Shown piece after piece: positions 599-42,676 of a DNA stretch of 59,421 nt. A model generated the notes under the pieces. That model did no database searches and was not told the DNA's origin. It was given only the letters and a program-made list of their open reading frames with translations. The position numbers and the translations under genes are program-made. Every line of letters starts with the position of its first letter. The first letter of the stretch is position 1. Location of the stretch: contig PWDW01000160.1 in assembly GCA_003553225.1 (NCBI GenBank), positions 1 through 59,421 of the forward strand. The letters run 5' to 3'. Origin of the DNA: Halanaerobiaceae bacterium. GTDB taxonomy: Bacteria; Bacillota; Halanaerobiia; Halanaerobiales; Halarsenatibacteraceae.

Positions 599-2887
599 AT
601 GAAAAATGATAACAACATTTTGTTTTTAAATATATTTTATCAATTGAAAAATAAAATATATAAATTACGACATTTTATAAAAAAATCAAATATGACTGGA
701 ATGATTGTTTTAGCAGCTTTAATTGGAGTGGTTGGGGGGCTGGGAGCAGTAGGATTTCACTATTTAATTTCAATATTGAAAAATATATTTTGGGGAGCAG
801 GCGCTGGTGAGAGTTTTCTCCCTGCAGTTAGAGCATTACCCTGGTATTATCGTATTGGAATTCCTGCTTTAGGTGGTTTAATTATAGGGCCGTTAATTTC
901 TTTTATTGTCCAAGAAGCAAAGGGGCATGGTGTACCAGAAGTTATGGAAGCAGTAGGTTTAAATTCTGGCATTATTAGAGTACGAGTAGCTCCTTTAAAA
1001 GCTTTGATTTCTGCAATCACTATCAGTTCTGGTGGTTCTGCTGGAAGAGAAGGGCCAATTGTACAAATAGGAGCTGGTTTTGGATCTGCTGTAGGACAAT
1101 TTTTTAAATTGAATTCTGAAAAAGTGGAAACTTTACTGGCTGCAGGAGCAGCTGCCGGTATTGGTGGTACTTTTAATGCGCCCCTGGCTGGTGTTATGTT
1201 TAGTCTGGAGGTTTTATTAAAAAATATTAAATTAACCAGTTTTTCTCCTATAGTAGTTGCTTCTGTAGCAGGAACCGGGGTGGCAAATTTATTTTTTACA
1301 GGAAGAACAGCTATTTTTGATATCCCTGTTTTCGAAATTGTGAGTATTTGGGAAATTATATTTTATTTAGGATTAGGTATTGCAGCAGCCTTAGTAGCCC
1401 TCTTATTTGAAAATTCGTTGTATTCAATGGAACATATTTTTGAAAAATTATATTTTCCTAAATTTTTGAAGCCGGCATTAGGAGGATTATTTTTAGGTTT
1501 ACTGGCGTTTTTAATACCTGAAATTCATTCTACCGGGTATCCAGTAATGGAAAGTGCTTTACATGGTAATTTGTCTCTGCAGATAGTTTTGATTTTAATG
1601 TTCGGGAAAATATTAGCTACAAATTTTACTTTAGGAAGTGGAGGTTCTGGTGGAATATTTGCTCCTTCTTTATTTATTGGTGCAATGATGGGGAGTAGTT
1701 TTGGAATGTTAGTCAATATAATATTTCCTAACATTAGTGCAGGGCCAAGTGCATATGGAATGGTAGGTATGGGGGCAGTGTTTGCCGGAGCTGCTCATGC
1801 TCCATTAACTTCTATTATAATATTATTTGAGATGACTCGAGATCCAAAAATATTTCTTCCATTAATGTTTGCCTGTGTTATTAGTACAGTATTAACTACA
1901 CTTATTCAAAAACGTAATATATATACTACAAAACTTTTAAACAGAGGTGTTGATATTGAAGCTATTGGAGAAGCGGGAATTTTAAAAAATATAAAGGTGA
2001 AGGATGTAATGAGTACTGAACTAATTGCTTTATTAGAAAAGGATACCATTGAAAAAGCAAATAGATTATTTAAAAAAGTATTTCATTCTTATTTACCAGT
2101 TGTTAAAAATGAAAATAATAAATTTATCAGTATGATTAGCTATAGAGAAGTCTTAAATTATTTAGAAGAAAAAAAAGGCAATCAGAAAATCGAAAATTTT
2201 ATTACTCCCTCTTCGATTTCATTAAATGAAGAAGATAATTTATTAAAGGCTATGGAATTAATGAATAATATAAAAATAAAAACAGTGCCTGTATTGGACA
2301 GTAAAGGAGAAAAACTTATTGGACTTATTAGTCGTAGTGATATATTAGAAGCTTATTACAGTAAAATTACTACTAATACTCAAAATGATACAATTCTTAA
2401 TTATTCTCAAAAAGTTTCTGTTGAAGTAGATGATTTAATCAATTTTGCGATTGATAATATAAAAAACCAGGCTGAAAAGGAAAAAATTAAAATAAAAAAA
2501 GAATTAGAAAATGATTTACCATCTGTTATTGCTAATGCCAGTAAAATCAGCTGGGTTTTAACAAATTTACTGGGAAATGCTCTTCGTTACAGTAATAAGG
2601 GAGATGAAATTATTATTTTTGCTAAAAGTAAAGAAGAAAAAGACCAGGTATTAATTGGAGTTAAAGATCATGGTCCGGGTATTCCAGAAAAATATCAAAA
2701 AAAGATATTTGAAAAATTTGTGCAGTTATCTGATAAATCAGAAGTGGGCGGTTTAGGGTTAGCTATTAGTAAAGAAATAATTGAAGCTCATGATGGTAAC
2801 ATCTGGGTAGAAAGTGAAGTAGGAGAAGGAGCAACATTTACAATTTCGTTAAATGCCTTTTATAATAGCAAACTAGAAGTAAATTAG
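599..2887 (+). CDS. ClC-family chloride channel fused to a CBS pair and a histidine-kinase-type ATPase domain
   Basis: The N-terminal ~450 residues are a ClC anion channel or transporter. Visible motifs are GHGVP (H110 where E. coli ClC has Ser107), GREGP with gating Glu151, FNAPLAG, the GSGGSGGIFAPS stretch, and a Tyr in IYTTKLL matching Tyr445. The proton-glutamate position (E. coli Glu203) is Val205, as in channel-type ClCs, so passive anion conduction is more likely than H+ exchange. Two CBS domains follow (about 465-522 and 534-590). Residues ~600-757 form a GHKL ATPase domain with N-box Asn660 (GNALRYS), G1 DHGPGIP from Asp690, F-box IFEKF and G2 GGLGLAI. No HisKA dimerisation helix or HExxTP phospho-acceptor motif is present. 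ClC-CBS architecture is common; the ATPase tail is not. AGGAGG lies at 579-584, a long spacing of 14. Confidence 0.93.
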   Translation: MKNDNNILFLNIFYQLKNKIYKLRHFIKKSNMTGMIVLAALIGVVGGLGAVGFHYLISILKNIFWGAGAGESFLPAVRALPWYYRIGIPALGGLIIGPLISFIVQEAKGHGVPEVMEAVGLNSGIIRVRVAPLKALISAITISSGGSAGREGPIVQIGAGFGSAVGQFFKLNSEKVETLLAAGAAAGIGGTFNAPLAGVMFSLEVLLKNIKLTSFSPIVVASVAGTGVANLFFTGRTAIFDIPVFEIVSIWEIIFYLGLGIAAALVALLFENSLYSMEHIFEKLYFPKFLKPALGGLFLGLLAFLIPEIHSTGYPVMESALHGNLSLQIVLILMFGKILATNFTLGSGGSGGIFAPSLFIGAMMGSSFGMLVNIIFPNISAGPSAYGMVGMGAVFAGAAHAPLTSIIILFEMTRDPKIFLPLMFACVISTVLTTLIQKRNIYTTKLLNRGVDIEAIGEAGILKNIKVKDVMSTELIALLEKDTIEKANRLFKKVFHSYLPVVKNENNKFISMISYREVLNYLEEKKGNQKIENFITPSSISLNEEDNLLKAMELMNNIKIKTVPVLDSKGEKLIGLISRSDILEAYYSKITTNTQNDTILNYSQKVSVEVDDLINFAIDNIKNQAEKEKIKIKKELENDLPSVIANASKISWVLTNLLGNALRYSNKGDEIIIFAKSKEEKDQVLIGVKDHGPGIPEKYQKKIFEKFVQLSDKSEVGGLGLAISKEIIEAHDGNIWVESEVGEGATFTISLNAFYNSKLEVN

Positions 2888-4363: not shown

Positions 4364-4888
4364 ATGATGTGTGTAAATAAGAAAAAATCAGAAATTACGA
4401 TACTGGATCCTGAAAATGTGGAAATAAGGCTTAATGAAGATGTACAGGAAGTAAATCTAAGATTAAAAGAAGAAGATAAGACATATGAGAGAGTTGAAGT
4501 TAATCCTGCTTTTCCTCTCAGTCAGATTGGCCGTTATATTTCTTTCAAAGAAGATGAAGATGATGAAGATGAAATAGGTATGATCAAGGATATTTCTGAA
4601 CTGGATAACCAATCCCGGCAGGCACTGGAAAAGATCCTGGAAAAAATGTACTTTATGCCCCGGATCATTAAAATTCATGAGGTAGAGGAAGAATTCGGTG
4701 TTACCCGCTGGGAAGTTGAAACAGAAAAAGGTTCACGTTCTTTTGATATTAAAAGCAGGAGAAGAGATATCCGGCCCTATGAAAACGGAAGAGTTATTTT
4801 CCATGATGTTGATGGTAATCGATATGAGATAACGGATTTTAACAAACTGGACAAGAAGAGCCGTAAATTGTTAAGATCCGAAATATAA
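4364..4888 (+). CDS. DUF1854-family protein
   Basis: This acidic 174-residue soluble protein has no signal or membrane segment. An N-terminal strand-rich region (about 10-60, with DPENVEIRLNED and a PAFPLSQIGRYISF stretch) leads into a second half with GVTRWEVETEKGSRSFDIKSRRRDIRP, the characteristic block of DUF1854. That domain occurs free or at the C-terminus of ABC exporters, and database names for some members link it to cyanophycin metabolism. It fits the context: an ABC exporter with an extra N-terminal domain of the kind found beside DUF1854 proteins lies about 1 kb away on the other strand. No cyanophycin synthetase or cyanophycinase is in the window, so that link is inference. An Asp/Glu run (EDEDDEDE) near residue 64 is notable. 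The start could also be the ATG at 4367. Confidence 0.7.
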   Translation: MMCVNKKKSEITILDPENVEIRLNEDVQEVNLRLKEEDKTYERVEVNPAFPLSQIGRYISFKEDEDDEDEIGMIKDISELDNQSRQALEKILEKMYFMPRIIKIHEVEEEFGVTRWEVETEKGSRSFDIKSRRRDIRPYENGRVIFHDVDGNRYEITDFNKLDKKSRKLLRSEI

Positions 4889-5887: not shown

Positions 5888-8182
5888 TTAAGCATCCAGT
5901 GTGGATACCGTAGTCTGCATATCCCACAGTTTCTTGAAAACACCATCTTCTTTTTCCAGCAGTTCATCATGAGTTCCGGTTTCTACTACTTTTCCTTCCT
6001 CAATAACAATTAATCTATCCGCATTTCTCAGTGTGGAAAGCCGGTGAGCAATTACAAAAGTAGTCCTTCCTTCAATTAAACGGTCGATAGCATTCTGGAT
6101 TTTATTTTCAGTCTCAGTATCTACAGAAGAGGTGGCCTCATCCAGGATCATTATCTGGGCATTTTTCAGTATGGCCCGGGCAATTGAAACTCGCTGTCTT
6201 TCTCCACCTGAAAGTCCGATACCCCTTTCTCCGACATGAGTGTCATAACCCATAGGGAAATCCATAATAAAGTCATGAGCATTGGCCATTTTTGCGGCCT
6301 GGATTATTTCTTCCCGGGAGGGGTTTTCAATACCATAGGCAATATTTTCAGCAATAGTCCCATAAAACAGGAAGGGATGCTGAGGGACAATACCAATCTG
6401 TTTTCTCAGCCACTCCAGGTCATAATCTCTAAGATCAATGCCATCCAGTTTGATAGCCCCGCGGGTTACTTCATAAAAACGGGGCAGCAGGTTAACAAAA
6501 GTTGTCTTCCCGGCTCCGGTGGGGCCAACAAGTCCGATGGTCTGTCCGGCTTTAACTTCGAGATTTATGTTTTCCAGCACATCTTCATCTTCACTTTCAT
6601 ACTGAAAGTAAACATTTTCAAAGGCCACATTTCCTTCCAGATCTTCTTTGCTTTTGGTGATGTTTTTCTGATCATATTCATCGGTTTCCGGTTCCATATC
6701 CAGAACATTGAAAACCCGTTCTGCGGAGGTGATGGCCTCTTCAAATTGTCCGGTTAGACGGGCCAGCTGCTGGACAGGGTTATAAAGCCCCCACATATAC
6801 TGGGTAAAAGCGACCAGGGTCCCCACGGTTATAACTTCTTCCATGGTTCTCAGGCCACCATACCACCAGATAATAATTGCTCCCAGTGAGGTGCTCATTG
6901 ACATAGCCGGATAAAAAATGCTTCTGGTTTTGGTAGCATTCATCTGTTCTGAAAAAAGTTCATCCAGCTGAGAATCAAATCTATTGATTTCTTCATTTTC
7001 TTTAGTAAAGGCTTTTACAACTTTAACCCCCGGTACAGTATCTCCGATAATCGCCTTCATATCACCCAGCCGCCGCCAGATTCTGTGATAAATAAGGTGA
7101 ATGGAATTTCTGAAAATGATGGTTATTATAATCACTACCGGTATTGGTGAAAGTGATATTAAAGATAAACGCCAGTTCATTCCAAACATAATACTCATAA
7201 TTACCATAACGGTAAAAATATTATTTAACAGCTGCTGTACACCTTCCACCATAAATCTGCGCAGCCGTCCGGTATCGGTTGAGACCCGGTTAATAATTTT
7301 ACCGGTCCTGTTGGTATCATAATAGTTCATACTTAATTTCTGAATATGTGAATATACTTCACTTCGCAGATCCATGGTAACCCTCTGGCCCACAAACTGC
7401 ATCAAATAGGTTCTAACCCCGATAAAAGCAGCTTTCATGACATAAATTGCAATCAGAAGGGCAATTACTACATAAAAAAGGCTGAAGTTTTGTTCGGTTA
7501 AAACATCATCGATCAGGACCCTGGTCAGGTAGGGTACGGCCTGATTAAGGGCACTTATGGACAGCAGCAAAAAGAGCGCAATCAAAGCCCGGCCCCAGTA
7601 TGGTTTAAGATAGCTAAACATTCTTTTAAATATTTTTTGTTTATCAATACATTTAGGGCAGACCTTCATTCCGGAGGGCAGTTTACGACCACATCCGGGA
7701 CAGCGGTCTTCATATTCCAGCCTTTCTTTGGTCATTTCCTTCATATCGGTGTTGCTGAATTCTTCTCTGGCTTCTTCGGGGTTGATCATATTTCTTATTC
7801 TCTGAGCCACCCACTCAAAACGCTGGGTATAGGATAGAGAGAAGCGCAGAAAATTTTTGCTCTGCTCTTCTGTTTCAATTTCCAGAAAGGCATTACCTAC
7901 AAATCGTTTAATGCGTATGTCTTTAATTTCGGACAGCAGCTGGTCATAATATTCAATTTCTCTTTTGTCCTGCTGCTGTATTACAGAAAACACAGCCAGC
8001 CTTTTGTCGGTTACCAGAAGCCAGTTTTCCTGGAAATTACCCGTCATGTCCAGATCACTTTTAACGGGAATCAAAGCTTCTTCATCTTCGGTAAATTTTT
8101 GATTTGCTATTTTAAAAATCTCATCCGGTATTTCACTTAATCTTTTTTTTGCCATTTCATCATGAATTGATGAAATATTCAT
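5888..8182 (-). CDS. ABC exporter (TMD-NBD half-transporter) with N-terminal regulatory domain and zinc ribbon
   Basis: This 764-residue protein starts with ~150 residues of strand-rich sequence (WLLVTDKRLAVFS, IKRFVGNAFLEIET) resembling a PH-like/bacterial YdbS-type domain. A CPGCGRKLPSGMKVCPKC zinc ribbon follows (about 160-178). Then come a six-helix exporter TMD (about 195-470) and an ATPase with Walker A GPTGAGKTT, signature LSGGERQR, Walker B IMILDEATSSVD and a switch His in AHRL. As a half-transporter it should homodimerise and export lipid, peptide or drug-like substrates. Typical exporters are ~580 residues; the extra ~180 at the N-terminus match the ABC family that travels with DUF1854 proteins, one of which lies at 4364. 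AAAGGAG lies upstream of the ATG. Downstream is its own terminator. Confidence 0.9.
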   Translation of the reverse strand: MNISSIHDEMAKKRLSEIPDEIFKIANQKFTEDEEALIPVKSDLDMTGNFQENWLLVTDKRLAVFSVIQQQDKREIEYYDQLLSEIKDIRIKRFVGNAFLEIETEEQSKNFLRFSLSYTQRFEWVAQRIRNMINPEEAREEFSNTDMKEMTKERLEYEDRCPGCGRKLPSGMKVCPKCIDKQKIFKRMFSYLKPYWGRALIALFLLLSISALNQAVPYLTRVLIDDVLTEQNFSLFYVVIALLIAIYVMKAAFIGVRTYLMQFVGQRVTMDLRSEVYSHIQKLSMNYYDTNRTGKIINRVSTDTGRLRRFMVEGVQQLLNNIFTVMVIMSIMFGMNWRLSLISLSPIPVVIIITIIFRNSIHLIYHRIWRRLGDMKAIIGDTVPGVKVVKAFTKENEEINRFDSQLDELFSEQMNATKTRSIFYPAMSMSTSLGAIIIWWYGGLRTMEEVITVGTLVAFTQYMWGLYNPVQQLARLTGQFEEAITSAERVFNVLDMEPETDEYDQKNITKSKEDLEGNVAFENVYFQYESEDEDVLENINLEVKAGQTIGLVGPTGAGKTTFVNLLPRFYEVTRGAIKLDGIDLRDYDLEWLRKQIGIVPQHPFLFYGTIAENIAYGIENPSREEIIQAAKMANAHDFIMDFPMGYDTHVGERGIGLSGGERQRVSIARAILKNAQIMILDEATSSVDTETENKIQNAIDRLIEGRTTFVIAHRLSTLRNADRLIVIEEGKVVETGTHDELLEKEDGVFKKLWDMQTTVSTLDA

Positions 8183-30033: not shown

Positions 30034-30392
30034 ACTTATCCCTCCTTAAGTATATAAAAATTGCAGCCACAAAAAATAATTAGGATACTTATTATATACT
30101 TTCAACAAAAAAATAATAAAACCTTCTTAAAATAAAATTATAAATCAATAGTTTTAGGTATTAATTTTTTTAACAGATTTTTTAAAGATTTTTGACCCTG
30201 TTTAATCCATACCTGTGGAAGGAATTTATAATATTTCCTTGAATAATAAACAATAGCCTGAATATTATAAGCTGTATAATTACACAGGTGGTTTTGCCCT
30301 GCCGGAGGCCGGGAATCTTTTTTGATAAAAAGCAGGCTTCATTTATATTATATAGTAATATTCAAAGTTTATTAAAAAACCGGGTGGTGTTA
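30034..30392. other. Intergenic region upstream of trkH
   Basis: Divergent spacer with no gene. I looked for a c-di-AMP (ydaO) riboswitch core ahead of the potassium transporter and did not recognise one. The in-frame GTG at 30288 would add 35 unconserved residues to TrkH and has no ribosome binding site. Confidence 0.45.
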
Positions 30393-31877
30393 ATGATTAA
30401 TAAAAAGGTAAGGCAGATTTTACACATATTGAGTTCAATATTTATGCTGTTCGGGGTGCTGCTTGTGGTTCCCCTGGTAATGAGTATTGTTCTGGGAGAG
30501 GGCCGGGCTGTATATCAGGGGTATATACTGCCGATTTTTATTTCACTTATACTGGGTTATATTTTTCATAAAATGGAGGATGAAAATCAAAAAATTGATA
30601 TTTCTACAGGTATGATGATCTGCAGTTTGGGCTGGTTTTTTATTTCTCTTCTGGGGGCCCTGCCTTTTTATATAATTTTAGATAAATCTTTTTTGGATGC
30701 TTTTTTTGAAGCTGTGAGTGGTTTTACTACGACGGGGATAACTGTTATCACAGAGATTTCTCTGATGCCGCTGTCTGTAATTTTCTGGCGGAGTTTCATT
30801 CAGTGGCTGGGTGGTCTGGGTATTTTGACTTTTTTCCTGTTTATTACATTCCGCAGTGAAAGTGAAATCTGGCAGCTTTTTTCTGCCGAAACCCATAAAT
30901 TTGATACCTCTCGTCCGGTTCCCAATTTTAACCGCTCAATTCAGATTTTATGGAGCATCTACATTTTCTTTACCCTGCTGCAGACTACTTTACTATCTTT
31001 TCTGGGGGTTAGTTTTTTTGACTCACTTACCCATAGTTTTACAACAGTATCTACAGGTGGGTTTTCCCGTTATGATAGTTCAATCGCTCATTTTGCCGAA
31101 GCGGGTTATGCCAGTTATATATATATTGAATATGTAGTAATCTTTTTTATGCTGATGGGTGGTCTAAATTTTTTAGTTCATTATAAAGTTTTTCAGGGCA
31201 GTATCAAAGAGATGTTTTTTGATGAAGAAACAAGAGAATACTGGAAAATATTCCTGGGGGCAGTTATAATCATATTTCTGGCCGGAATTTTTATGCAGGA
31301 GCAGATAAATTTACCCCTGATTGAAGAACGAATTCGGAGCACCCTATTTCAGGTGGCCTCTATAATAACTACCACAGGATATCAGACTGAACATATTGGT
31401 TCACAGTACTTTCCCGAAATATCCCGTATAATTTTTCTTCTATTAATGCTGATTGGGGGCTGTGTGGGCTCAACTTCAGGAGGAGTAAAAGTTATCCGGG
31501 TTAAAATTTTAAAAAAACTTTTTTATAAAGAATTGAAGCGCCCTTACCTGCCCCACAGGGCTGTGTTCCCTCTGACAATTAACAGGGAGCAGGTGGCTTC
31601 AAAAGAGGTTCTGAGAACTGCCGGAATGTTTTTCGGCTGGCTGAGCTTAATACTGCTGGGAGGGATGATAACAGCCCTTTTTTCCCACCTGGATGCCCTG
31701 CAGTCACTGTCAGGTATGTTTTCTGCGGTAAGCAATATTGGTCCATTTTATTTCAGTGTTAGTGAAATGCAGGAACTGTCTCCTGTAATAAAAATAACCT
31801 ATATTATTGGCATGCTGGCCGGACGGCTGGAGATAATTCCGGTCTTAATTTTGTTTAGAAAAGCTACCTGGAAATAA
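30393..31877 (+). CDS. trkH: TrkH-family potassium uptake membrane subunit
   Basis: This 494-residue K+ channel-like subunit has four M1-P-M2 repeats. The pore loops can be read: SGFTTTGITV, HSFTTVSTGGFSRY, ASIITTTGYQTEH and SAVSNIGPFYF, each with the filter glycine. Segments between them are hydrophobic helices, about 10-12 in total. TrkH needs a cytoplasmic RCK partner (TrkA) for gating; none is adjacent, but three RCK proteins are encoded 9-12 kb downstream. The start is the ATG at 30393 with GGTGG upstream; it gives the usual N-terminus. K+ accumulation is the main salt response in salt-in anaerobes. Confidence 0.92.
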   Translation: MINKKVRQILHILSSIFMLFGVLLVVPLVMSIVLGEGRAVYQGYILPIFISLILGYIFHKMEDENQKIDISTGMMICSLGWFFISLLGALPFYIILDKSFLDAFFEAVSGFTTTGITVITEISLMPLSVIFWRSFIQWLGGLGILTFFLFITFRSESEIWQLFSAETHKFDTSRPVPNFNRSIQILWSIYIFFTLLQTTLLSFLGVSFFDSLTHSFTTVSTGGFSRYDSSIAHFAEAGYASYIYIEYVVIFFMLMGGLNFLVHYKVFQGSIKEMFFDEETREYWKIFLGAVIIIFLAGIFMQEQINLPLIEERIRSTLFQVASIITTTGYQTEHIGSQYFPEISRIIFLLLMLIGGCVGSTSGGVKVIRVKILKKLFYKELKRPYLPHRAVFPLTINREQVASKEVLRTAGMFFGWLSLILLGGMITALFSHLDALQSLSGMFSAVSNIGPFYFSVSEMQELSPVIKITYIIGMLAGRLEIIPVLILFRKATWK

Positions 31878-39221: not shown

Positions 39222-39875
39222 ATGAAACAATTCATTATTATTGGTTTGGGGCGTTTTGGAGAGAGTGTGGCTCGATATCTGTATAGAAAAAAACAAAACG
39301 TTCTGGTTATTGATAAAGATGAAACTAAGATTCATAACATAAAAGGGATGGTTACTCATGCTGTACAGACAGATGCTACTGATATAAATAATCTAAGAAA
39401 CTTAGGTGTTGAAGATTTTGATGTGGCAGTTGTCAGTATTGGTGGAGATATCCACGCCAATGTTCTGGCTACCTTAAATGTCAAGGAGCTGGGAGTTCCT
39501 TTTGTTGTTGCTAAAGCAAAAACTGAGTTAGACAGAAAACTTCTGGCCAAGATAGGGGCTGATAAAATTGTCAACCCTGAGGAAGATATGGGGCGGAAAA
39601 TTTCTTATGATATACTTTATTCAAATATATTTGATTATATTGAATTTGCCCCAAACTGCAGTCTAATTGAAATTGCTGCTTCTTCACAATTAGAGGGAAA
39701 AACTTTATCAGAATTATCGTGGGATAATGTAGAAATAAATATAATTGCGATTAAACGCGGGGGGGAACTTCATTTGAACCCTGGCCCTAAGGAAAAAATA
39801 AAAGAGGATGATATTCTAATAATCATTGGTGAAGATAAAGATTTAGAAAAAATACAGCAGAAGATGATTGATTAA
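39222..39875 (+). CDS. ktrA: Potassium-transport RCK regulatory subunit (KtrA/TrkA type), copy 1
   Basis: This 217-residue cytoplasmic gating ring protein has an RCK_N Rossmann domain (GLGRFGES at 8-15, VIDKDETK) and an RCK_C domain (~135-215, LEGKTLSEL... IKEDDILIIIGE), the site bound by c-di-AMP in relatives. It should form octamers under KtrB. CTGGAGG precedes the ATG. It lies 30 bases before the ktrB gene, so both are likely cotranscribed. No c-di-AMP riboswitch is evident in the upstream spacer. Confidence 0.92.
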   Translation: MKQFIIIGLGRFGESVARYLYRKKQNVLVIDKDETKIHNIKGMVTHAVQTDATDINNLRNLGVEDFDVAVVSIGGDIHANVLATLNVKELGVPFVVAKAKTELDRKLLAKIGADKIVNPEEDMGRKISYDILYSNIFDYIEFAPNCSLIEIAASSQLEGKTLSELSWDNVEINIIAIKRGGELHLNPGPKEKIKEDDILIIIGEDKDLEKIQQKMID

Positions 39876-39905
39876 TTTTCTTATACAGCCAAGGGGAATA
39901 ACAAG

Positions 39906-41252
39906 ATGAATAGAATAGAATTTAGAATAAGTGAATTAAATTCGGCTCAGATCCTTGCTTTAGGCTATTTTATTGTAATTATAACCGGTACTATTTTATT
40001 AATGCTGCCCATAGCTACACCCGGCAGTCAGAGCTTAAATTTTGTCGATGCTTTATTTACAGCCACTTCAGCCACCTGTGTTACAGGATTAATTGTGGTA
40101 AATACGGCTGCGGCTTTTAGTGTGTTTGGCCAGCTTGTAATTCTGGTTTTAATTCAAATTGGTGGTCTGGGTATAATGACCATGTCTACCATGGCGGGAC
40201 TGCTTATCGGCAGGCGAATCTCCTACAAAGAAAGATTAATTATTCAGGATGATCTGCAGGAATTTTCAATTTCCAATGTTGTGCACCTGGTTAAATATGT
40301 TATATCCTTTACCGCTATAATACAGGGCATCGGGGCCCTGCTGATTTTTTTGCGTTTAATTTTTAAATATGATTTTTTAAAATCATTTTATTTTTCCGTT
40401 TTCCATGCTGTTTCTGCTTTTAATAACGCCGGTTTTGATATTTTTGGCAACAGTCTGGAAAATTTCACAGATGATATATTGATAAATTTTGTGATAATGG
40501 GATTAATTATTCTGGGTGGTCTGGGTTTTGTGGTTCTCGTGGAAATGTACAATACTAAAAGCTTGAAAAAATTGCGGAATATTAGTCTTCAGACCAAAAT
40601 AGTGCTGGTTTTATCCTTTGTATTGCTGGTTAGCGGTTTTTTTATGATTTTATTGCTGGAATTTGATAATCCAGCAACCATGGGCGAATTATCTGCAGGC
40701 AATAAAATGCTTTCTTCATTATTCCTTTCGGTCACTCCGCGGACGGCAGGATTTAACACTGTACCTACTGGAGATTTAAAGATAGCAACTCTGTTTTTTG
40801 TTATAATTTTGATGTATATTGGAGCATCCCCCGGTTCAACCGGAGGGGGGATCAAAACTACTACCTTTGGAGTAATGGTAATGTCAACCTGGAATTTAGT
40901 TAAAGGGAAAAACAGGGTAGAAATTTATAAACGGGAAGTTGATCTGGAAATAATTGAAAAAGCTTTTGCTATTGCCTTATTGTCTATTTTTCTGGTTCTG
41001 ATTGTAACCATGATTCTGGTTGTAAATGAAGATATGCCTTTTATTGAAGTAATGTTTGAAACTGTTTCTGCTTTTGGTACAGTTGGTCTTTCAACAGGAG
41101 TAACCCCCAATCTGTCAAATCTGGGCCGGTTATTAATTACTGTTACCATGTTTGCCGGTCGGGTTGGTCCTTTAACTCTGGCTCTTGCTTTTGCCAAAAG
41201 AAGGCAGAAAGGGATATATCATTATCCCCGGGAAGATATAATGGTGGGCTAA
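39906..41252 (+). CDS. ktrB: Potassium channel-like uptake subunit KtrB
   Basis: This 448-residue membrane protein has four M1-P-M2 repeats, each with a filter Gly: TSATCVTGLIV, FNNAGFDIFG, RTAGFNTVPTG and SAFGTVGLSTG. The intramembrane loop region SPGSTGGGIKTTTFGV in the third repeat is the KtrB gate. KtrB takes up K+, often coupled to Na+, and is regulated by KtrA rings. It is shorter than the TrkH at 30393 and of the Na+-dependent Ktr type. GGGGAATAACAAG precedes the ATG. Two RCK proteins follow downstream and one precedes, so subunit choice may switch the regulation. Confidence 0.94.
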   Translation: MNRIEFRISELNSAQILALGYFIVIITGTILLMLPIATPGSQSLNFVDALFTATSATCVTGLIVVNTAAAFSVFGQLVILVLIQIGGLGIMTMSTMAGLLIGRRISYKERLIIQDDLQEFSISNVVHLVKYVISFTAIIQGIGALLIFLRLIFKYDFLKSFYFSVFHAVSAFNNAGFDIFGNSLENFTDDILINFVIMGLIILGGLGFVVLVEMYNTKSLKKLRNISLQTKIVLVLSFVLLVSGFFMILLLEFDNPATMGELSAGNKMLSSLFLSVTPRTAGFNTVPTGDLKIATLFFVIILMYIGASPGSTGGGIKTTTFGVMVMSTWNLVKGKNRVEIYKREVDLEIIEKAFAIALLSIFLVLIVTMILVVNEDMPFIEVMFETVSAFGTVGLSTGVTPNLSNLGRLLITVTMFAGRVGPLTLALAFAKRRQKGIYHYPREDIMVG

Positions 41253-41336
41253 CATTGGGGTTCATAGTAGATTAATAGTTGTTTTTAAATAATGCTTTCC
41301 CGAAACATCTTTATTTGTAGTAAAGGAGGAACCTGC

Positions 41337-41984
41337 ATGAGAAAATTTGTAATTGTTGGGCTGGGTAGATTTGGGTACAGTTTAGCCTGTAATATTGCCG
41401 AAAAGGGATTTCAGGTCCTGGCCATTGATAATAATGAAGAAAAGGTGGCCAAAATTTCTCAGGTAATATATAATGCAGTTCAGGCTGATGTATCAGAAAA
41501 AGAGACTCTGGCCAGTTTGGGGGTTTCCGAATATGATGTGGCGGTGGCCAGTATTGGATTGAATGTTCAGGATAATATCCTGGCTACTTTGTTTCTCAAA
41601 GAATTGGGTGTGCCCTATGTCATAGCTAAAGCTCAGGATGAACAGTTTGGAAAGGTATATTCCAAGATAGGAGCTGATAGAGTGGTTTATCCGGAACGGG
41701 ACATGGGACAGAGAGTGGGCCAGAACCTGTTATCATCCAATTTAATTGATTATATAAAATATGATTCTGACTACAGTGTTATTGAATTGAGTGCCCCCGA
41801 AAGTATGAAGGGTCGCAGCTTAAAAGAGCTGGATTTGAGGAGAAAATACAATATAAATGTTATAGCCATAAGAAAAGATGAAGATTTAAATTTGATTCCA
41901 GGAGCCAATGACCGGATAACTGAAGGTGATATTTTGATTTTAATGGGAAAGAACAAAGATATTGACAGGGTAAAAGCCATATAA
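41337..41984 (+). CDS. ktrA: Potassium-transport RCK regulatory subunit (KtrA/TrkA type), copy 2
   Basis: This 215-residue protein has the same two-domain plan as the product of 39222: GLGRFGYSLACNIAEKG (Rossmann), VLAIDNNEEKV, NILATLFLKELGVPYVIAKA, GADRVVYPERDMGQR, then RCK_C (MKGRSLKELDLRRKYNINVIAIRK). The two are clear paralogues along their length but diverged, so this is not a recent duplication. AAAGGAGG precedes the ATG at 41337; a 15-residue in-frame extension from 41292 has no site. It is 85 bases after ktrB. Confidence 0.92.
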   Translation: MRKFVIVGLGRFGYSLACNIAEKGFQVLAIDNNEEKVAKISQVIYNAVQADVSEKETLASLGVSEYDVAVASIGLNVQDNILATLFLKELGVPYVIAKAQDEQFGKVYSKIGADRVVYPERDMGQRVGQNLLSSNLIDYIKYDSDYSVIELSAPESMKGRSLKELDLRRKYNINVIAIRKDEDLNLIPGANDRITEGDILILMGKNKDIDRVKAI

Positions 41985-42007
41985 AAATTATACCGGGAGG
42001 GATGCAG

Positions 42008-42676
42008 TTGTATGTGATTATAGCCGGAGGTGGAGCCTTTGGAAGAAGACTGACCAAAAAGCTGGCTCCCAACCATGATGTAGTGGTAATTGATATTGAG
42101 CGGGAAGTATGTGAGAGAATATATTCAGAATATGGGGCGGTCAGTGTCCATGGTAATGCCACCCAGATTCATGTTTTAAGAGATGCGGGTATCGAAAAAT
42201 GTGATGTGGCTATCGGGGCCATGGATGAAGACACCAACAATCTCGCCCTTGCCATTCTTGCCAAAAACTTCGGGGTGGATAATATACTGGTCCGGATGCG
42301 CAATCCTGAATACCAGAATGCCTATGAACTGGCCGGAGCCACCCACATAGGTGCCGAAATTGATATCCTGGCCGATAAATTTATAACAGAGATTGAAGAA
42401 CCGATCATTAAAAAGGTGGCTTCAATAGGCCGGGGAAAGGCGGAAGTTTCTATTTTAGATATTCCTCAGGATTCTGAATGTGTGGGGTTAACGGTTTCGG
42501 AAATAGTAAACAGTGAGGGTTTTCCCGATGAATGTGTGATTGCCGGTATTTATGACCAGAATCAGGATAAACTGGTTATTCCCCGGGGCAGCAAAAAAAT
42601 AAATGCTCATAATCAAATATTTCTGGTTGCTACCAGAGAAAATATGGAACAGGCGGCAAAATTCTTTATGCGGTAA
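42008..42676 (+). CDS. TrkA-family RCK protein, divergent third copy
   Basis: This 222-residue protein is a third RCK_N-RCK_C protein: MYVIIAGGGAFGRRLTKKLAPNHDVVVIDIEREVCERIYSEYGA at the N-terminus, with GGGAFG instead of GLGRFG, then NNLALAILAKNFGVDNILVRMRNPEY and an RCK_C half. Its sequence is closer to classical TrkA than to KtrA, so it could serve the orphan TrkH at 30393 rather than KtrB. GGGAGG (41995-42000) is one base from the ATG at 42002 but 7 bases from the TTG at 42008; I therefore prefer the TTG, which also gives the conserved N-terminus. It ends the Ktr cluster. Confidence 0.88.
   Translation: MYVIIAGGGAFGRRLTKKLAPNHDVVVIDIEREVCERIYSEYGAVSVHGNATQIHVLRDAGIEKCDVAIGAMDEDTNNLALAILAKNFGVDNILVRMRNPEYQNAYELAGATHIGAEIDILADKFITEIEEPIIKKVASIGRGKAEVSILDIPQDSECVGLTVSEIVNSEGFPDECVIAGIYDQNQDKLVIPRGSKKINAHNQIFLVATRENMEQAAKFFMR

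Follow-up and report, generated by a model that had tools for sequence, protein, structure and literature searches.

A ClC chloride protein carrying a histidine-kinase-derived tail in the Halanaerobiales and their allies

We describe a gene in which a ClC chloride protein with a tandem CBS pair continues, in one chain, into the ATP-binding catalytic (CA) domain of a histidine kinase. The gene lies near the start of the 59,421-nucleotide stretch of Halanaerobiaceae DNA that we analysed (the window), and its architecture is kept in nine sequences. The tail branches with the histidine kinases of Trk potassium operons, and in the window genome a protein resembling the sensor end of the same kinase is encoded just upstream, behind a c-di-AMP riboswitch. 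We propose, with a probability of roughly 0.55, that the ClC protein, be it channel or transporter, is regulated in cis by a CA domain that binds adenine nucleotides without acting as a kinase, and is co-regulated with potassium homeostasis by c-di-AMP. The initial annotation had offered three roles for the ATP-binding part, namely gating of the channel by nucleotide, phosphorylation of a partner, or anion and ionic-strength sensing; nucleotide-binding gating fits best.

Architecture and distribution of the fusion

The reading frame runs uninterrupted from end to end, and Pfam domains and their boundaries agree along it (Table 1), bearing out the annotated junction of ClC, two CBS domains and HATPase_c in a single 762-residue product. 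The Pfam HATPase_c match itself covers residues 648–751 (7.9e-25). The phospho-acceptor helix that had been reported missing is indeed absent: HisKA has no Pfam match in the 762-aa product, there is no H box, and the alignment keeps the CA domain alone. Within the ClC part the alignment confirms both the retained gating glutamate (Glu151, the Glu-ex of GREGP) and the replacement of the proton glutamate (Glu-in) by Val205, alongside Glu204, a GHGVPEV selectivity filter and Tyr442, and the CBS pair follows helix R, as is characteristic of the ClC-CBS subclass. Compared with solved structures, the N-terminal part resembles CLC-ec1 and the C-terminal part the CA domains of HisKA-type kinases (HK853 family; E 2e-21). 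An AF2 prediction (mean pLDDT 83.6), from whose alignment we left out kinase fragments that had aligned into the ClC part, recovers the CLC fold and the CBS pair, followed by a Bergerat-like alpha/beta domain that has the HATPase elements one would expect and a disordered lid (residues 708–718); Foldseek matches the model to CLC-ec1 structures (E 4e-22).

Table 1. Features of the ClC fusion, its operon and the potassium-uptake genes of the window (coordinates in the window unless a contig is named)
Feature	Position	Strand	Evidence or remark
ClC-CBS-CBS-HATPase fusion gene, 762 aa	599..2887	+	frame open throughout; Pfam; kept in nine sequences
Voltage_CLC domain, aa 92-432	872..1894	+	Pfam 8e-101, alignment, structure match
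Tandem CBS domains (Bateman pair), aa 458-590	1970..2368	+	Pfam, two stretches, 3.8e-23; AF2 model
HATPase_c (CA domain) tail, aa 604-752, no DHp/H box	2408..2854	+	Pfam, tree, structure matches, AF2
N-box Asn660, invariant in 9/9 fusions	2576..2578	+	
G1 box D-H-G-P-G, aa 690-694; D, G, G invariant in all fusions	2666..2680	+	
Gln709 where 20/20 parental kinases have the ATP-lid Arg	2723..2725	+	
Altered G2 box VGGLGL, aa 716-721, versus GTGLGL	2744..2761	+	
ORF1, 202 aa, first codons on contig C262	1..552	+	profile match; 121-bp overlap
c-di-AMP riboswitch RF00379, upstream of ORF1	C262 323-455	-	122.6 bits (gathering 38)
TrkH K+ uptake protein, context, outside the ClC operon	30288..31877	+	
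TrkA-like - TrkH - TrkA-like - TrkA-like cluster, context	39222..42676	+	TrkA-like by sequence

Channel-type function, which the initial annotation had assigned, is plausible for the ClC part but less distinctive than it appeared. Valine at Glu-in is the residue of all ClC channels, and some antiporters likewise have no dissociable residue there (PMC3519907). Because Glu-in is non-acidic in all 24 ClC-CBS relatives that we aligned, the feature belongs to the ClC-CBS class as a whole and is not special to the fusion.

The domain order Voltage_CLC, CBS, CBS, HATPase_c recurs in eight further sequences with 51–61% identity to the window protein, so that the fusion is present in nine genomes or contigs of four families and two orders (the Halanaerobiales and allies), including the isolate Halanaerobium polyolivorans Z-7514 (L042). 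A tblastn search of 101 relatives recovered full-length homologues in G016, G023, G028, G004 and G052 and contig-edge copies in G001 and G006; the G023 copy sits in a 2.6-Mb single-contig genome. The HATPase_c domain is found as well in L043, a MAG contig labelled Thermoflexales that is probably misbinned. The 398 phylum genomes searched contained no fusion beyond the class, and among the best 80 named matches none has a HATPase except L042 and L043. Because eight further sequences share the domain order, a joining artefact is excluded; the sequencing error that could have linked two genes, like any assembly or frameshift artefact, is rejected by the independent genomes, the isolate and the single-contig G023. 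The fusion is genuine. Close relatives (G003 and G002) encode ClC-CBS proteins that have no HATPase, and of 11 further ClC-CBS proteins whose tails measure some 100 aa, 10 carry TrkA_C at this position.

Origin of the tail

A tree of 62 rows groups the fusion tails in a single clade (support 96/85), sister to the kinases of Trk operons in a joint clade (100/98) that excludes all other histidine kinases of the same genomes; three rows that bear a histidine-kinase label inside the fusion clade are fragments of fusions from contig edges. At the level of sequence, this placement shows a single origin of the HATPase tail, from the Trk-operon histidine kinase family, and rejects a generic histidine-kinase origin.

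The parental kinase (A2) has about 610 aa arranged as sensor-HAMP-PAS-HisKA-HATPase. It adjoins TrkH/TrkA and response regulators in 18 of the 18 loci read (of 21), and a c-di-AMP riboswitch is present in 10 of 10 parental-kinase loci scanned and in L041; four more genomes (G023, G028, G003 and G052) have one immediately upstream of the kinase. Gene context suggests that the kinase serves the Trk potassium operon. Across loci L131–L150 and L041 that operon consists of the riboswitch (often with TrkH and TrkA), a sensor kinase, a CheY-like response regulator, a second response regulator (RR2) of about 231 aa and then the Trk genes, namely two TrkA-like proteins (about 135 and 220 aa) and TrkH; it is apparently an uncharacterised two-component potassium uptake system of the Halanaerobiales and allies.

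A full-length parental kinase is absent from the window genome (G000) and from G016, G004 and G001. Its response regulator RR2 has no orthologue in G000 or G016 and persists as an orphan in G004 and G001, elsewhere in those genomes and within a riboswitch operon. In that operon (L211, L212) a one-TM coiled protein of 106–111 aa stands in the kinase's place and APC-type transporters follow. The four genomes without an intact Trk kinase have only a longer, DisA-like DAC protein (about 365 aa); those with one (G023, G028 and G052) have an extra, shorter DAC protein of about 265 aa, the size of CdaA.

Loss of kinase features in the tail

The N-box asparagine, the G1 aspartate and both G1 glycines are kept in all nine fusions. 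By contrast, the arginine that follows the F box in the ATP lid occurs in none of the nine, against 20 of 20 parental kinases and, as R or K, 25 of 31 other histidine kinases; likewise no fusion has the complete set of G2 glycines, which is present in every parental (20/20) and other kinase (31/31) compared. The initial annotation had taken all four boxes to be intact; N, G1 and F stand, while in the window protein G2 has changed and the lid arginine has become glutamine (Table 1). Even so, the window copy is the most kinase-like, retaining Asn656, Asn660, Arg663, Tyr664 and the LGL of G2, and it may have some kinase chemistry left, directed at a partner. In CpxA, the ATP phosphates are held by G2 residues together with Asn360, Arg363 and Tyr364 (PMC3904827). 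The lid is most eroded in G023, G028 and L043, where ATP itself may no longer be bound. Homologues without ATP-binding residues had been named as a possible refutation, and they exist only in part, the lid being wrecked in these three sequences and N and G1 being intact in all.

Pairwise dN/dS for the tail is 0.06 between G001 and G006 (from few substitutions) and 0.19 between G023 and G028, and the tail is therefore maintained even where its lid is wrecked. Since residues needed for phosphorylation have been lost, it is probably a nucleotide-responsive regulator rather than a kinase. The loss of lid and G2 residues with N and G1 kept, the purifying selection, and the lack of a full-length parental kinase in four of the genomes and of RR2 in two lead us to predict an adenine-binding, non-phosphorylating role in cis. 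Phosphorylation of a partner is accordingly disfavoured among the roles first suggested, with lid arginine and complete G2 missing from 9/9 fusions and neither parental kinase nor RR2 present in the window genome or G016; the description of the protein as a channel plus a kinase finds no support.

A riboswitch operon with the two ends of a kinase

The fusion gene begins 46 bp downstream of ORF1, whose product comprises a transmembrane segment, a helical extracytoplasmic domain and a second transmembrane segment, right after which it ends. The start of the window contig overlaps contig C262 by 121 identical bases that occur nowhere else in the genome. Against a profile of the N-terminal sensor of the Trk-operon kinase, ORF1 scores 37.1 bits (E 4.6e-10) over its whole length; the best of 500 segment-wise shuffles reached 7.1 bits, and chance similarity is rejected. 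The score rises from 28.4 to 37.1 bits once the codons on C262 are added, an improvement across the join that supports it; the join rests on this better fit together with the overlap. ORF1 is thus homologous to the sensor of the Trk-operon kinase, as judged from the profile match, and is a probable partner or relic.

The riboswitch upstream of ORF1 is the only RF00379 match in the window genome, and its aptamer ends 144 bp before the ORF1 start codon. Between the two, folding reveals an intrinsic terminator (a hairpin of -18.2 kcal/mol, z -5.3, followed by a U tract), which a simple terminator scan missed because its loop has 11 nt. The order of the operon is hence riboswitch, kinase sensor end (ORF1), ClC-CBS, kinase catalytic end. 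With ORF1 on one side and the HATPase tail on the other, the two ends of the kinase flank ClC-CBS, and HAMP, PAS and the phospho-acceptor are gone; the arrangement resembles a kinase whose middle has been swapped for a chloride channel. Both ORF1 and the riboswitch linkage are seen in the window genome alone, a single MAG, which also encodes a DisA-type DAC-domain protein (c-di-AMP synthase). The ionic or osmotic role guessed in the initial annotation agrees with the riboswitch and the Trk context.

Proposed mechanism and its rivals

We suggest that the CA domain, freed from phosphotransfer, has been kept as an intracellular adenine-nucleotide-binding module, with ATP and ADP as first candidates, and that together with the CBS pair it would set chloride conductance in cis. 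A ClC dimer would present two CBS pairs and two CA domains, and nucleotide occupancy of the CA domains, the CBS pairs or both would change the conductance, while ORF1 may relay an extracytoplasmic signal. ATP and ADP are known to regulate ClC-3/4/5, an effect its authors credit to the CBS domains (PMC7271328). When c-di-AMP is low, as at low potassium, transcription would pass the terminator, and an OFF response would be expected at high c-di-AMP, as for potassium importers; c-di-AMP OFF riboswitches repress potassium transporters and importers (PMC6488665). Since the operon lies under such a riboswitch, chloride movement would be adjusted together with potassium, tuned with it during osmoadaptation by salt (KCl), and since Halanaerobium is described as chiefly a salt-in osmoadapter (PMC13340142), chloride as the partner ion of potassium would be a natural role. 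What we infer here is nucleotide binding, the direction of gating, the choice between channel and exchanger, and the physiological role.

The effector may differ from ATP: the CBS pair, the lid-less CA domain or both could bind c-di-AMP or another non-ATP adenine ligand, one messenger then setting expression as well as activity. The riboswitch and the DisA-type cyclase of the window genome would suit this reading, as would the TrkA_C domain at the same position in ClC-CBS relatives and an eroded lid with G1 and N kept, which is what a ligand without a gamma-phosphate might leave. We nevertheless regard it as doubtful, and to our knowledge no GHKL domain binds c-di-AMP. Published precedents point both ways, in that c-di-AMP is bound by the CBS domains of OpuCA and the RCK_C domains of Ktr/Trk, and a ClC with RCK_C (EriC) has been proposed as a target, but EriC's RCK_C on its own showed no binding (PMC5919688). 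A composite reading, in which the former kinase domain is a ligand-gating module (for ATP/ADP or c-di-AMP) of a chloride channel with ORF1 as its split-off sensor subunit, under a c-di-AMP riboswitch, is one that we advance tentatively, as a real possibility against which the odds still lie.

Two further readings keep closer to the kinase ancestry of the tail. It might be active, phosphorylating Ser/Thr or the DHp domain of a separate partner in the manner of RsbW/SpoIIAB or a split histidine kinase, so that anion binding or flow becomes a phosphorylation signal. The N, G1 and F boxes, the ATP contacts largely retained in the window protein and the orphan RR2 in the riboswitch operon of G004 and G001 are compatible with this, and KdpD, a potassium sensor, can phosphorylate transporters, albeit by another domain (PMC11018627). 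An active kinase is nonetheless unlikely, for the lid arginine and G2 glycines eroded in 9/9 fusions are never lost in parental kinases, the fusion has no H box, G000 and G016 have no RR2 orthologue, and we saw no DHp-only partner adjoining the fusion gene. A shade less likely again is a protein-interaction relic, a pseudokinase CA domain that would dock ORF1, TrkA, a response regulator or a remaining Trk kinase and would not need nucleotide. Erosion of G2 and lid would agree with it, ORF1 represents the former N-terminal half of that kinase, and DivL, a histidine kinase turned to another use, binds no ATP (PMC4211667); yet the N-box asparagine and the G1 aspartate and glycines are strictly kept in 9/9, which adenine binding explains best, and the DHp helices, where docking normally takes place, are missing. 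That the fusion is accidental and functionally neutral, or an assembly artefact, we consider very improbable: the window comes from a 269-contig MAG and the ClC gene begins 599 bp from the contig end, but nine sequences in four families, with an isolate and a single-contig genome among them, speak against an artefact, and the purifying selection on the tail (dN/dS 0.06–0.19) against neutrality.

Comparison with known systems and significance

The fusion belongs with the ClC-CBS proteins and adds a regulatory tail that is new among them. Bacterial ClC-CBS proteins (ClcB-like with a Bateman pair, and ClC-CBS-TrkA_C, to which the RCK_C-bearing EriC of Streptococcus agalactiae may be compared) share with it the GREGP Glu-ex, GHGVPEV, a non-acidic Glu-in and the CBS pair, but their tail is TrkA_C, a regulatory domain of potassium channels, or nothing, where the fusion has a histidine-kinase HATPase. 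The two ends of the Trk-operon kinase A2 correspond to the HATPase tail and ORF1; unlike A2, the fusion has no HAMP, PAS or HisKA, its lid arginine and G2 are eroded, and it is attached to a ClC. The transceptor kinases CbrA (SLC5-HK; PMC7096432) and Ks-Amt5 (Amt-HK; PMC5764959) also unite a transporter and a histidine-kinase module in one chain, but they keep the DHp domain and autophosphorylate, whereas the fusion lacks a phospho-acceptor and is probably inactive as a kinase; judged by its sequence it falls outside their class, whose defining DHp-CA feature is missing. Eukaryotic ClC-3/4/5 likewise have C-terminal CBS domains, thought to let adenine nucleotides tune the ClC (PMC7271328), but not the additional GHKL domain. 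DivL (PMC4211667) is a similar case of repurposed kinase catalytic machinery, although it keeps DHp and all boxes and the fusion keeps only CA, with an eroded lid. We found no report of a ClC-HATPase fusion in the literature searched.

How chloride is kept in step with potassium in salt-in halophiles is poorly understood, and here a ClC protein is connected with the potassium circuit of c-di-AMP and Trk through DNA linkage, a riboswitch and shared protein domains. A histidine-kinase catalytic domain has apparently been recycled as a regulatory domain of an ion channel, a path by which a signalling kinase could turn into a ligand-gated channel and of which we found no description in the literature searched. 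If the composite reading is right, a two-component potassium sensor was taken apart and its pieces reused to regulate a channel directly, which links potassium and chloride in a salt-in osmoadapter.

Neighbourhoods of the fusion and of related ClC genes

We looked for conserved response regulators near the homologues, as had been suggested for a signalling protein, and saw no cognate regulator beside the fusion in the neighbourhoods read; RR2 in G004 and G001 is an orphan located elsewhere. TrkH-TrkA adjoins the fusion in G023 and G028. In G016 a c-di-AMP riboswitch and APC-Usp transporters come after the fusion, with TrkH also nearby, and in G004 its neighbours are a TrkA-like gene and a second ClC. 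The G052 neighbourhood has no TrkH-TrkA, APC-Usp, TrkA-like gene or second ClC.

In G052 (L213, 1-4239), a ClC gene of modest length (436 aa) stands immediately before a c-di-AMP riboswitch and an APC transporter that resembles the APC-Usp proteins of G016, a further case of ClC next to c-di-AMP control. In G002 (L034, 5679-10007), the HATPase-free ClC-CBS gene comes right after genes for another response regulator and another histidine kinase (614 aa), an independent case of ClC and two-component genes as neighbours. ClC genes 52–57% identical to those of Halanaerobiales occur on MAG contigs assigned to Thermoflexales or Thermoplasmata (L043–L046), which are probably misbinned. In the window itself, a DUF1854 protein is encoded next to an ABC-transporter-like protein on the opposite strand (4364-4888 and 5888-8182).
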